From Anaerolineae bacterium (GTDB taxonomy: Bacteria > Chloroflexota > Anaerolineae > Promineifilales > Promineifilaceae): a DNA stretch of 64,000 nucleotides. Position 1 is the stretch's first letter, and each line of letters opens with the position of its first letter. The notes under the pieces were generated by a model. That model searched no databases, was not told where the DNA came from, and worked only from the letters and a program-made list of their open reading frames with translations. The position numbers and the translations under genes were made by a program. The stretch covers positions 1 through 64,000 of the forward strand of contig SLGK01000042.1 in assembly GCA_007123775.1 (NCBI GenBank). Reading direction: 5' to 3'. This document shows, piece after piece, positions 47,101-50,411 of the stretch.

Positions 47101-47366
47101 CCACACGCCTGGGGCTGTTGGGGCTGCTGGTTGGGGGCTGGCTTTTTTACAGCCTGGGCCGCACGCTGCGCCGGGCCATGCACCGCGTGACGGCCGAATG
47201 GCAGCCGGTGGCCGTAGGGCTGGCCGGGTCACTGGCGGCCATTCTGGCCCACGGGCTGGTGGACCACAGCTTCTTTTTGATTGACCTGGCGTATGCCTTC
47301 TTTTTGTTGTTGGGAACGGCCGTTTGGTTGGAGCAAAACAAGCGTACTACCGGTGCGTCATCATGA
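44178..47366 (+). CDS. Fusion of glycosidase-like TIM barrel and O-antigen ligase-like membrane domain
   Basis: The 1062-residue protein starts with a signal-anchor helix (residues 8-25). Residues about 45-380 resemble a GH5/GH39-type barrel with candidate acid/base Glu near 153 (YIIWDEPNI) and a Glu near 318 (MFLENWQPG). A beta-sandwich module follows (about 385-490). From about 495 to the end there are 10 or more helices with O-antigen ligase features (LLTFSRGGLLLG, ADHPLTGVGLDNFLYAYRGRY). A fold-back phrase lies in frame at about residues 664-708. The gene ends convergently with the Nmad3 gene. Probably it cuts or modifies a glycan and ligates or polymerises it on the outer face; this is inference. 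Confidence 0.72.
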   Translation: MTNRYRILTAAGLLTAALALLLMGALHTRQLELTRGLPDGLPQPIAHAGVQPGLNLDLAAYDEQKLADNLAQIKGLGVNYVKHSFYYDENFDWAESDRLVTAVSHHNLTLIPLLDGSPHDNFAPVPPADFAAWAGDFAQRYGSQFPVYIIWDEPNITSHWGGQPVNAAEYAAILSAASAAIRAADSEALISAAPLAPTIETGPQNLADPLYLQRLYEADVAHAFDIVMAKPYGFDYSPHDRRVDQNITNFSRAILLREVMERNGDGHKPIWAGNWGWNALPAGWTGPPSIWGDATPAQQADWTVAALERARQEWPWMGLMFLENWQPGTHEADPRWGFSIAGRETAVTLQQTIAQWDEAIAYPGFHLARPDHPAQQYQGNWRFSPEFGADISQSEPPDSLTFTFWGTDVGLRVRRADFRARLYITINGQPANALPQDEFGSMLILTSADPDEDYISLEWVARNLKPGIHTMTITASRGWDQWALHGFSVAYHPPDRGYRWAMAGLGLTAVLALFLAFYGARRVDWGAWDARWRVRYGRFSDQTQLLLTALAGAIVALTGWLTWGSEAAGLYRRLGDAGQLALTAATASIFYVAPSFYVYALALVVLLLLIRLRPAWGLVLIAFCFPFYVPDITKPIFSYRFSPVEIFALVTLAAYLLKAIPERASQYAVASSQYAVDNKKDSPRTTHYALRTTHHASRITQPATRSLHAADYAAIALLLVATLSLFFTERLGLALTEYRVVIVEPIIFYFLLRAIRPSGREMWRLLDGFVLGGLIVAGIGLWQYGTGHEALITAEEGLMRLRSIYGSPNNVALYLGRILPLLLALAWLGGPTHGRRRWLYGAAAVPVGLAILLTFSRGGLLLGVPVGFLVIFWVWQKRNGRSPWPWLILFAAAGAIGLLIAQRIPALAGRMDLTSATSFFRINLWRASLSMIADHPLTGVGLDNFLYAYRGRYIFDAAWQEPNLNHPHNIVLDFATRLGLLGLLVGGWLFYSLGRTLRRAMHRVTAEWQPVAVGLAGSLAAILAHGLVDHSFFLIDLAYAFFLLLGTAVWLEQNKRTTGASS
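46169..46301. repeat. In-frame phrase array (CAGTATGCAGTAG and CACTACGCACTACG phrases)
   Basis: Repeated CAGTATGCAGTAG phrases are followed by GCACTACGCACTACGCATC and CACGCATCACGCA phrases. The same phrases occur in intergenic elements (17783, 63262). They are translated in frame inside the glycosidase/ligase gene as a basic, His/Thr-rich loop between membrane helices. Confidence 0.8.
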
Positions 47367-47372
47367 GATTTA

Positions 47373-48224
47373 TCATCTGGCAAATAGGCTGCCTGCCCAC
47401 TGGATTGCCTCTGGATAATCGCCACAGTCTAAAACAAATTCCTGGCCCGGACTGGCAGTCTGCAACAAAACGTGATCATCCTGTCTGCGCCACTTGTTTA
47501 ACTTCCCATGGTAACTCAGGGCTGAGGCTTTGCCTTCGGGACACATCCATAAGGGCAGTTTCCAGTAGCTTACCGATGAATTGGGCGCAGTTAATTGTAG
47601 TTTGGGCATAAACCGGGGAAAAATGCCCCCACCCGCAATCTGTTGTTCAGCCAGACCGGGTAGGTCAAGTTGTTCACGGGCAATGTATACCGTATTGGAC
47701 GACCGCTGTAACTGAAAATGAAAATGGGGATGGTATTGTGCCCAGGGCCACTGAACGACGGCCGTTTCATCTACGGCCGTTTTCGCTTCAATCTGAAGCC
47801 AGCCCCAAATAATATGTTTGGCTGGCGAATCAGGCTTGAACTGAATCTGATTCTCGGCCACGATCACTTCTCGAAACAAGCCAAAGAAGAGGAACAAGTC
47901 CCCAGGACCAACGCCCTGATTTCTCAAATGGCCTTGGGCTGCATTGGCCTGGCCAAAGATTGGTCGCCAGCCTTCTGGTCGGGGAATGCTGTTGGCATCA
48001 AGGTCCGGGTCTAAGTGGGCCCGATAATCAGGTTTGATACGGCCGTTGGTCAAGCTCGTTACAATTTCACCCAAATTGTATTCTCCCCAAGCGATATCCT
48101 TGTAAGCAATCGGTGATTCGTCCCCCGGGATTGGTAATGATAGCAAACGGCCGTTGGGCCAAATAGGACTGGGGCAACGACCGGCACTGCTATCAAACCC
48201 TTTTCTACTAAAAATTATTCTCAT
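47373..48224 (-). CDS. Nmad3-family putative nucleotide-modification protein
   Basis: About 283 residues matching the Nmad3 family (nucleotide modification associated domain 3) along its length: MRIIFSRKGFDSSAG, CPSPIWPNGRLLSLPIPGDES, AHLDPDLD, GWRPIFGQANAAQGHL and the GVGPGDLFLFFGLFR motif. Such proteins were predicted from gene neighbourhoods to take part in base modification; no biochemical activity is established. The ATG at 48224 overlaps the stop of the Nmad2 gene (ATGA), so the two are translationally coupled. Two adjacent ACGGCCGT palindromes give a TAVDETAV segment. It ends seven bases from the convergent O-antigen-ligase-like gene. Confidence 0.82.
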   Translation of the reverse strand: MRIIFSRKGFDSSAGRCPSPIWPNGRLLSLPIPGDESPIAYKDIAWGEYNLGEIVTSLTNGRIKPDYRAHLDPDLDANSIPRPEGWRPIFGQANAAQGHLRNQGVGPGDLFLFFGLFREVIVAENQIQFKPDSPAKHIIWGWLQIEAKTAVDETAVVQWPWAQYHPHFHFQLQRSSNTVYIAREQLDLPGLAEQQIAGGGIFPRFMPKLQLTAPNSSVSYWKLPLWMCPEGKASALSYHGKLNKWRRQDDHVLLQTASPGQEFVLDCGDYPEAIQWAGSLFAR

Positions 48225-48856
48225 AGAGCCTCCCAACTAACATCGTTGCTGGACCAAAAATGAGGAGCGTTGTGAACACCTATGCTAAACTTCTCTGTCA
48301 CAAAATTGACGAACTGCTCTGCTCGTTCAATATCGTGCGTTAAAACACCATAATGCGTTTGGCTAACTGGCACTTTAGGTCTCATAGCTCGAGGAATCTG
48401 TTCTGGCCCATTACCAAAAGCTAACGGCCTGCCGCCAAAATAGTAAAACCGGTCTGAAACCAACACAAATTCACCAGACAAATCGCGTTGTTGATGTTTG
48501 CTGGCGTGGTTTTTGTTTTCAAGCTGAATGAATTCCCCATCTACTGGCTTGTAGATATTATCGCCCGCTTTATAGACGATCTGACTATGACCCAGATCAG
48601 GAATCTTGTTCTGAAATTTCGGATGGGAGTAATAGCTGGACATGGGAATCTTATCAGTTACTTGCATCAAGAAAACAAGCCGTTCTTCACCGATCTCATC
48701 CCCACATAATTCTTTCGAGGTAAAGCCAGCTATCGAATCACCCTGTCTTTTTGATTTCCGCATTCCGGGTTTACAGGTTGCCATCGTCAATACGCCAAAA
48801 AAGGGATTGGGGGCAAAGCCTGAATCATTGGTCATTTTGTAAGAGAATAATCTCAT
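48221..48856 (-). CDS. Nmad2-family putative nucleotide-modification protein
   Basis: The 211-residue protein fits Nmad2: MRLFSYKMTNDSGFAPNPFFGVLTMATCKPGMR, a MQVTDKIPMSSYYSHPKF segment, GDNIYKP and the FVLVSDRFYYFGG motif. The family was defined by predicted association with base-modification genes; no mechanism is proven. AAGGAG lies eight bases before the ATG. It overlaps the XRE regulator upstream by 32 bases and Nmad3 downstream by four, indicating one transcript. The sequence here looks somewhat less GC-rich than the neighbours, which could reflect transfer, but this was judged by eye only. Confidence 0.82.
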   Translation of the reverse strand: MRLFSYKMTNDSGFAPNPFFGVLTMATCKPGMRKSKRQGDSIAGFTSKELCGDEIGEERLVFLMQVTDKIPMSSYYSHPKFQNKIPDLGHSQIVYKAGDNIYKPVDGEFIQLENKNHASKHQQRDLSGEFVLVSDRFYYFGGRPLAFGNGPEQIPRAMRPKVPVSQTHYGVLTHDIERAEQFVNFVTEKFSIGVHNAPHFWSSNDVSWEAL

Positions 48857-49100
48857 GTTTCATGCTCCTTCTCAACCACTCAGGCCAACTGCGTATATAC
48901 CTGCGGATGTTCTCAACAATCCGCAGCAAGAACTTAGCCGGACCACTTGGCTCCCGCCGCCCCTGTTTCCAATCCTGTAAAGTGTGGACACTAACACCCA
49001 TCAAACTGGCAAATGCTACCTGCGATAACTGCAACCGGTGTCGAATTTCTTGAACGGGTGCCGGCTTAGTACGGCGGCTTGGCCGGACCTGAATAGCCAC
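48825..49100 (-). CDS. XRE-family helix-turn-helix regulator (NadS/HigA-like)
   Basis: About 91 residues. The DNA-binding core is IRHRLQLSQVAFASLMGVSVHTLQDWKQGRREPSG, followed by PAKFLLRIVENIRRY, typical of NadS/HigA-type regulators often encoded in stress or toxin-antitoxin loci. No toxin lies beside it. The start is not certain: GTG at 49100 gives a normal length; an ATG at 49181 would overlap the upstream gene by 115 bases and add residues with no resemblance. It overlaps both neighbours in the operon, so it may autoregulate the Nmad genes; this is inference. Confidence 0.75.
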   Translation of the reverse strand: MAIQVRPSRRTKPAPVQEIRHRLQLSQVAFASLMGVSVHTLQDWKQGRREPSGPAKFLLRIVENIRRYIRSWPEWLRRSMKHEIILLQNDQ

Positions 49101-49743
49101 ACATACCCACTCGCGGCGAGTTGTACAATTCCACAGGCTCACCATAGTCATGGTGCGGATGACTGTCAGCATGTTTGTCACAGAGTGTGCCCGCTATGTC
49201 CTCTTCATATAGGCATTCCATACAGAGCCAACCGGCCGGCTGGTCACATTCAATGCAGGTAACTTCCGGGGCCAGATTGCGGGCCATGAGCGTCATGGGC
49301 TGTTTGGTCACAGGCTTGCCCTTGCGGGCATCGACAAACTTGATCAATGTTTCGGACGATGTGCCAAAGTCATAGATGTGGGTCAGTTCCACATCGGGCG
49401 CAAACACGCGCTCAATGTGGCGAGACTTAGGAATTTCACGTCCCGACCAGCCACCGACGGAGAACTGGCTCATGTGGCCGCAGCATTCCAGCCAGATGGC
49501 CCGCAGGTAATGGTCCAAATCTTGCAGCCGGGCCGAGCCGCGCACCTCCAAATCGAGCCAGAAATCGTTGCTCCAACTATCCTGCACCCGCAAATGGTAA
49601 AGCGTCTCGCCGCCGCTTATGCCGGCTTTCTCAATCGCATCTCCCCTCTTTGAACAAGCACGCAAATGGCGAATCATGCCTCCCTTAGCATATTCTTTCT
49701 GGCAATAGTGACAAATGCCTCTTGATTGTTTTCTGGCAGTCAT
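49066..49743 (-). CDS. Plasmid pRiA4b ORF-3-like protein with zinc-finger ends
   Basis: About 225 residues. An N-terminal C2H2-like finger (CHYCQKEYAKGGMIRHLRAC, residues about 11-30) precedes a pRiA4b ORF-3-like domain (YHLRVQDSWSNDFWLDLEV, LRAIWLECCGHMSQF, HIYDFGTSSETLIKF). The C-terminal 60 residues hold several Cys and His (CIECDQPAGWLCMEC, CDKHADSHPHHDYG), likely a zinc ribbon. Function is unknown; the family is found on plasmids and in mobile contexts. GGAGGT lies six bases before the ATG at 49743. It heads the four-gene overlapping operon with the XRE regulator, Nmad2 and Nmad3. Upstream is a dispersed repeat. Confidence 0.78.
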   Translation of the reverse strand: MTARKQSRGICHYCQKEYAKGGMIRHLRACSKRGDAIEKAGISGGETLYHLRVQDSWSNDFWLDLEVRGSARLQDLDHYLRAIWLECCGHMSQFSVGGWSGREIPKSRHIERVFAPDVELTHIYDFGTSSETLIKFVDARKGKPVTKQPMTLMARNLAPEVTCIECDQPAGWLCMECLYEEDIAGTLCDKHADSHPHHDYGEPVELYNSPRVGMCGYSGPAKPPY

Positions 49744-49759
49744 TTTGACCTCCTGCAAA

Positions 49760-49860
49760 AATAGGACGCAGATTAACGCGGACTTCGTCGTGAGCTCAGC
49801 CGAACGATAAACGCAGATAGTTTTCATTTATTGTGGTGCGCTGCGCCCATGTTGAACTCC
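49760..49860. repeat. Dispersed repeat, copy 2, with 25-base nested insertion
   Basis: Matches copy 1 at 10951-11026 on both sides of a 25-base insertion at 49782-49806 (core GTGAGCTCAGCCGAACG). The outer parts differ by only a few bases. The rest of the 428-base gene-free stretch to 50171 holds a short phrase at 49908-49945 and the acpP leader; no clear promoter or RNA was seen there. Confidence 0.85.
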
Positions 49861-49907
49861 AATCCAAATGGAACGCCAGCATCCCTGTTGGCAATAGGCC
49901 GGCTGCA

Positions 49908-49945
49908 AAGCCATCACGCATTACGTTTCACGCTTCACGATAAAC
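49908..49945. repeat. Short phrase CATCACGCATTACGTTTCACG
   Basis: A single arm of the CGTAAAACG/ACGTTTTACG-like phrase class without an obvious partner arm nearby. Confidence 0.45.
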
Positions 49946-50171
49946 GCCACACTATCCTGAAGCCTTACTCTTTTTCTGCAAGTATACATCAACACAAAAT
50001 TTGACGAAATGGGCAAGTTGAGGCACGATAGGGGGGGATTGTGTAAACATTGGGACAAGTCGCCCACGCAAACCTTGTAAGAGCGAAACTTCCCACACCC
50101 TCCGGTGTTTCCACTACAAACACGGTGTAATTTTCCAATATACCCAAGCATAACTGAAGGAGAAATGACTT

Positions 50172-50411
50172 ATGAGTGATACAGAAGCTCGCGTGCGTGA
50201 AATTATCGTCGATTTGCTCGGCGTGGATGAAGAGGAAGTGGTAGCTGAAGCCCGTTTCCGTGAAGATTTGGAAGCTGATTCACTTGATCTGGTTGAGCTG
50301 ATTATGGCCTTTGAAGAAGAATTCGCGGGGGAGATTTCTGACGAGGAAGCGCAGAAAATCACGACGGTGGGTGAAGCAGTAGCGTACATTGATACGCATA
50401 TGAAAGATTAG
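50172..50411 (+). CDS. acpP: Acyl carrier protein
   Basis: A 79-residue acidic helical protein of standard ACP length. The phosphopantetheine attachment site is Ser37 in [10 protein letters not shown], and [30 protein letters not shown] match fatty-acid ACPs. It carries growing acyl chains in the cytoplasm. GAAGGAGA precedes the ATG. It is a single-gene unit ending at the hairpin at 50484, with no other fab genes in the window. A specialised ACP is possible but nothing marks it as such. Confidence 0.95.

Follow-up and report, generated by a model that had tools for sequence, protein, structure and literature searches.

The locus studied here raises the question of which of four tightly packed genes belong together, and what they do. 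It lies in a stretch of 64,000 nucleotides (the window) from contig SLGK01000042.1 of an Anaerolineae bacterium of the Chloroflexota, where a first-pass annotation had proposed a system made up of a pRiA4b ORF-3-like gene, an XRE regulator, Nmad2 and Nmad3. The Pfam names of Nmad2 (PF18753) and Nmad3 (PF18754) mark a predicted association with nucleotide modification, and both are families without known activity. The Nmad families were reportedly defined in a 2013 paper. Our search of the literature returned no description of Nmad2 or Nmad3, and what is said here of their pairing and predicted fold comes from the present data.

The four leftward ORFs are found on the minus strand at the positions given in Table 1. 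They overlap by 35 nt (pRiA4b-like/XRE), 32 nt (XRE/Nmad2) and 4 nt (Nmad2/Nmad3), the last through an ATGA junction, which agrees with the tight coupling that had been proposed. A GGAGG motif precedes the first and the last gene of the block, those for the pRiA4b-like protein and Nmad3. The Nmad assignments are borne out by profile searches, which place both window proteins clearly in their families, far over the Pfam cut-offs: Nmad2 matches PF18753 with an E-value of 5.7e-46 over profile positions 3-198 of 200 (157 bits, cut-off 26.1), and Nmad3 matches PF18754 with 1.4e-77 over the entire profile, 1-247 of 247 (261 bits, cut-off 27). The genome holds a single copy of each. Within the block no nuclease or methylase gene was found among the ORFs or by Pfam and PADLOC searches, as a restriction-modification or Type IV system would have, and the pair is accompanied in the window by no effector. 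Nmad2 and Nmad3 match none of the PADLOC models of catalogued anti-phage systems. An Rfam search gave no match, promoter-like sites were as numerous as in shuffled sequence, and terminator-like sites were uninformative.

Table 1. Coordinates of the features of the four-gene block, as positions in the window.
Feature	Position	Strand	Basis
Inserted low-GC block between wzy-like gene and acyl-carrier-protein gene	47367-50171		GC and flank comparison
pRiA4b ORF-3-like Cys-rich protein	49066-49743	-	PF07929, 17.8 bits, below cut-off
XRE/NadS-like small HTH protein	48825-49100 (GTG start assumed)	-	HTH_3, 21.2 bits, below cut-off; phrog_2104, 2.4e-18
Nmad2, 211 aa, first gene of conserved pair	48221-48856	-	PF18753, 157 bits
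ATGA stop-start overlap, Nmad2/Nmad3 coupling	48221-48224	-	Sequence
Nmad3, 283 aa, second gene of conserved pair	47373-48224	-	PF18754, 261 bits

The whole four-gene block is a low-GC insertion that has jumped into this bacterium. This follows from two observations: GC content is 0.45-0.54 over 47.4-50.2 kb, the wzy-like gene having about 0.60-0.65, and the wzy-like and acyl carrier protein genes, which are 2.8 kb apart in the window (intergenic spot 47366-50172), lie only 16-195 bp from each other in four genomes of the same family (L211, L212, L214 and L215). No integrase was seen at the insertion site in the window, and no convincing terminal repeats bound the block.

The first two genes are not conserved partners of the other two. 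The pRiA4b-like protein scores under the PF07929 cut-off of 26.6 bits, and the label is nevertheless plausible, because full-length relatives in Deinococcus (31-32%) bear that name, and a 47% relative in Herpetosiphon adds to its support. Homologues of this protein are present in 22 of 301 genomes of the phylum, and the window has the only one that adjoins Nmad2 or Nmad3. The XRE protein, which also falls short of its Pfam threshold (23 bits for HTH_3), does not qualify as a NadS antitoxin either (NadS 38.7 versus 60), and it lacks a toxin partner, the gene upstream being the pRiA4b-like one and not a RelE/HigB-like one. Among the other pair loci examined there is no adjoining pRiA4b homologue and no XRE protein close to that of the window, the nearest being a divergent one upstream of the pair in L094. 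The XRE protein is a local passenger or regulator. The proposal of a conserved four-gene system, for which the first-pass annotation had itself named non-recurrence of the gene order as refutation, is accordingly rejected, the quartet being found nowhere else among the loci examined; its Nmad2-Nmad3 part recurs in at least 27 places. The conserved unit is the Nmad2-Nmad3 pair.

Recurrence of this pair was surveyed with our own HMMs, using one genome per species and taking the best 80 Nmad3 loci. Nmad2 directly adjoins Nmad3 in 19 of these 80 although just 6 of 399 Pseudomonadota genomes carry Nmad2, and adjacency therefore recurs far beyond chance. In the class of the window, Nmad2 is similarly rare (5 of 199 genomes). 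The at least 27 distinct pairs, from at least eight phyla (Chloroflexota, Planctomycetota, Nitrospirota, Thermodesulfobacteriota, Pseudomonadota, Acidobacteriota, Binatota and Actinomycetota), comprise the 19 survey loci, the window and seven from other sources, without overlap: a Burkholderia locus with a broken Nmad2, two random Pseudomonadota, two Chloroflexota (G092 and G514) and two viral contigs. The two genes nearly always overlap or abut, and where Nmad2 comes first nearly all pairs overlap by 1-20 nt. The reverse order, Nmad3 before Nmad2, occurs in at least four pairs, and the existence of both orders argues for function and not for frozen ancestry. Distances between Nmad2 sequences covary with those between their Nmad3 partners (Mantel r 0.65, p 1e-4, 18 pairs), a correlation that shared organismal history alone could yield.

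Some individual loci show further features. On a megaplasmid of Burkholderia stagnalis (L034:7974-9150), an unannotated Nmad3 precedes a truncated or frameshifted Nmad2, which is the reverse order. The proteobacterial genome JA1.bin11 (L153, L154 and L155) has four copies of Nmad2, more than one Nmad3 and transposase remnants. In Desulfofustis sp. PB-SRB1 (L089:4198-8858), the pair stands directly after Cas1-Cas2 and a CRISPR array of 17 repeats. Single pairs lie near AbiEii (L151) and HigBA (L094). Across 112 neighbours of pairs, PADLOC and Pfam found scattered AbiE, Cas1, WYL and HTH genes, and no constant partner or defence gene. The idea that the pair came from GenBank phages was rejected, since no such phage matches it; some IMG/VR contigs do match the pair genes.

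Each gene is also found without the other. Among 50 genomes with Nmad3, 20 have Nmad2, adjacent in 19 of them, and 30 have none. Solo Nmad3 is frequent, and ten loci of the Halomonas group share one chromosomal neighbourhood, a setting unlike that of a defence cassette. The claim that no methylase, restriction or phage gene adjoins the block is true of the window and fails among relatives: on phage contigs, Nmad3 adjoins a ParB-N6/N4 DNA methylase at L166:2870-5136, with a similar layout, judged by sequence likeness, at L168:3320-5585, and at L169:4836-8951 such a methylase lies 2 kb away. In addition, a protein of about 200 aa without a Pfam family follows Nmad3 on two viral contigs (L169:5560-6222 and L170:2778-3368) and may replace Nmad2 there.

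On plasmids and viral contigs, Nmad2 keeps other company. It stands after a Thoeris-type TIR gene (ThsB_TIR) and before either MazG_C and UDG or a 5hmdU kinase (HMUDK) and a radical SAM gene. These cassettes recur at L036-L042, L160 and L163, in the order ThsB-like TIR, Nmad2, MazG_C, UDG or, as in L037, TIR, Nmad2, 5hmdU kinase, radical SAM. These TIR-Nmad2 cassettes often lie amid other TIR or CBASS genes, and in L148 Nmad2 neighbours TIR-SLOG. At L152:6108-8875, genes for a ParA-like ATPase and a SIR2-like protein come after Nmad2, possibly a separate defence cassette. The type of partner is strongly clustered on the Nmad2 tree, where the Nmad3-partner label changes 5 times compared with 15.4 expected. 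In the cassettes, as in the window, Nmad2 is translationally coupled to its neighbour; the window differs in that it has no TIR, MazG_C, UDG or kinase, the neighbours of Nmad2 being the XRE gene and Nmad3, the latter in the partner's place.

Structure prediction offers a view of what the two proteins may bind. AlphaFold2 models, built from alignments of 54 (Nmad3) and 31 (Nmad2) sequences that leave out those from plasmids, are confident (pLDDT 94.4 for Nmad3 and 95.6 for Nmad2). No sequence homology to PDB chains was found, and Foldseek gave no PDB match at an E-value of 0.001 for Nmad2, Nmad3 or the viral models. About 40 of the top 50 matches of the Nmad2 model are PUA-like by our reading, with a best E-value of 0.056 and none significant singly. 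They include ASCH (5y6b, 5guq), EVE (2eve, and THYN1 with 5mC DNA, 5j3e) and YTH (4u8t, 6fpx) domains, TRIP4, McrB N-domains and the PUA-like domain of ATP sulfurylase; the best one, below significance, is an ASCH protein from Zymomonas. Viral models give a like pattern of ASCH, DUF3850, EVE and SRA. The resemblance is weaker for Nmad3, whose best match, not significant (E 0.16), is the McrB N-terminal domain with modified DNA, followed lower down by EVE, YTH and EOLA1-type ASCH. Both models thus appear, as predictions, to resemble the PUA-like (ASCH/EVE/YTH/McrB-N) superfamily that binds modified bases. Sequence profiles do not link the two proteins to EVE or ASCH: hhalign gives probabilities of 0.1-1.7% for Nmad2 or Nmad3 against either, and likewise nothing for Nmad2 against Nmad3; what we propose is therefore a resemblance in fold, not family membership.

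The best reading of these data, which we hold with about even confidence, is that Nmad2 and Nmad3 together sense modified nucleic acid, as a mobile pair that serves in genetic conflict, probably with mobile DNA or phages. The first-pass annotation had listed recognition of modified DNA or RNA and phage defence among the possible roles, and both are retained here on the basis of the predicted folds and the genomic contexts. From these we infer the ligand, the immune role and the division of labour between Nmad2 and Nmad3. The functional unit would be the translationally coupled pair, moving horizontally as a module, and both proteins, through their PUA-superfamily folds, would most likely bind a base of foreign DNA or RNA that is modified, or that wrongly lacks a modification. 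The task of recognition would fall to Nmad2, in line with its other contexts, in which it would feed Thoeris-type TIR or nucleotide-processing partners; Nmad3 would either read as well or be the subunit that acts. Local repression of the block may come from the XRE protein, and the pRiA4b-like protein would be a passenger. In favour of this reading are the recurrent adjacency in both orders, the covarying distances, the PUA-like matches, the low-GC insertion and the TIR, SIR2, methylase and other conflict-related genes near Nmad2, Nmad3 or single pairs; against it stand the Foldseek and profile results without a significant match, the absence of an effector or nuclease gene beside the window's pair, the scatter of defence genes among pair neighbours, and the shared setting of solo Nmad3 in the Halomonas group.

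Nmad3 has an invariant cluster formed by R7, K8, D11, H70-x-D72-P-D74, H137, H165-P-H167, Q261 and E262, and among its 54 sequences about 20 positions, polar or Trp/Tyr, show conservation of 95% or more. R7, D11, H70, D72, H165 and H167 are kept in most of the diverged members. This polar set could be a catalytic site. A more speculative and rather unlikely form of the sensor proposal would see the pair as an immune module that works on its own: Nmad2 would recognise a hypermodified base, and Nmad3, as a new enzyme of PUA-like fold with its His/Asp/Gln-Glu cluster, would act on the base or strand without a classic nuclease; TIR-coupled Nmad2 would then serve as that sensor with another output.

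The same residues underlie the main rival explanation, somewhat improbable in our judgement, that the pair is an enzyme system making, removing or cleaning up a modified nucleoside of the cell itself, in its DNA, its RNA or its nucleotide pool, with the Nmad3 cluster as active site. It can be likened to YqfB, an ASCH protein that is an N4-acetylcytidine amidohydrolase. The conserved positions of Nmad3 exceed what a plain binding pocket needs, the Nmad2 partners MazG_C, UDG and HMUDK are nucleotide-processing enzymes, and Halomonas-group genomes stably keep solo Nmad3. However, patchy distribution, the insertion and the TIR and SIR2 partners suit conflict better than housekeeping.

It is less probable still that four unrelated genes gathered in a variable spot, with nothing in common but an operon formed by chance. 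Low GC content, the insertion and the non-recurrent pRiA4b and XRE partners are in line with such an origin, which holds for the first two genes but leaves the adjacency of Nmad2 and Nmad3, so frequent and in both orders, unexplained. Least likely of all is a two-gene toxin-antitoxin-like module on mobile DNA with an ASCH-type ribonuclease as one member: the small overlapping genes, their mobility, the TA genes near some loci and the Zymomonas ASCH protein, reported as an ssRNA nuclease, would fit it, but both proteins exceed the usual TA size, and the solo Nmad3 genes and the TIR cassettes with Nmad2 alone imply that neither protein needs the other.

A sensor of modified nucleic acid would have known counterparts. 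EVE, YTH and McrB-N domains are modified-base readers of Type IV restriction (PMC7641849, PMC11090510). The Nmad pair would resemble them in its predicted PUA-like fold and proposed modified-base recognition, and differs in having no nuclease or GTPase partner and no sequence-level similarity. An NMAD domain of unspecified family appears in legends of the DefensePredictor study, among validated (Fig. 3C) and predicted (Fig. 6F) systems (PMC13092281); those legends do not state which Nmad family is meant and do not mention an Nmad2-Nmad3 pair. For comparison with that work, two queries found no copies in E. coli.

Taken together, a coupled pair that crosses phyla, a predicted reader fold, and an Nmad2 common to TIR and modified-nucleotide cassettes replace a vague name with an idea that can be put to the test. 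They raise the questions of which base Nmad2 and Nmad3 bind and how Nmad3 acts. If the idea is true, the pair would represent a new class of sensor for hypermodified phage DNA.
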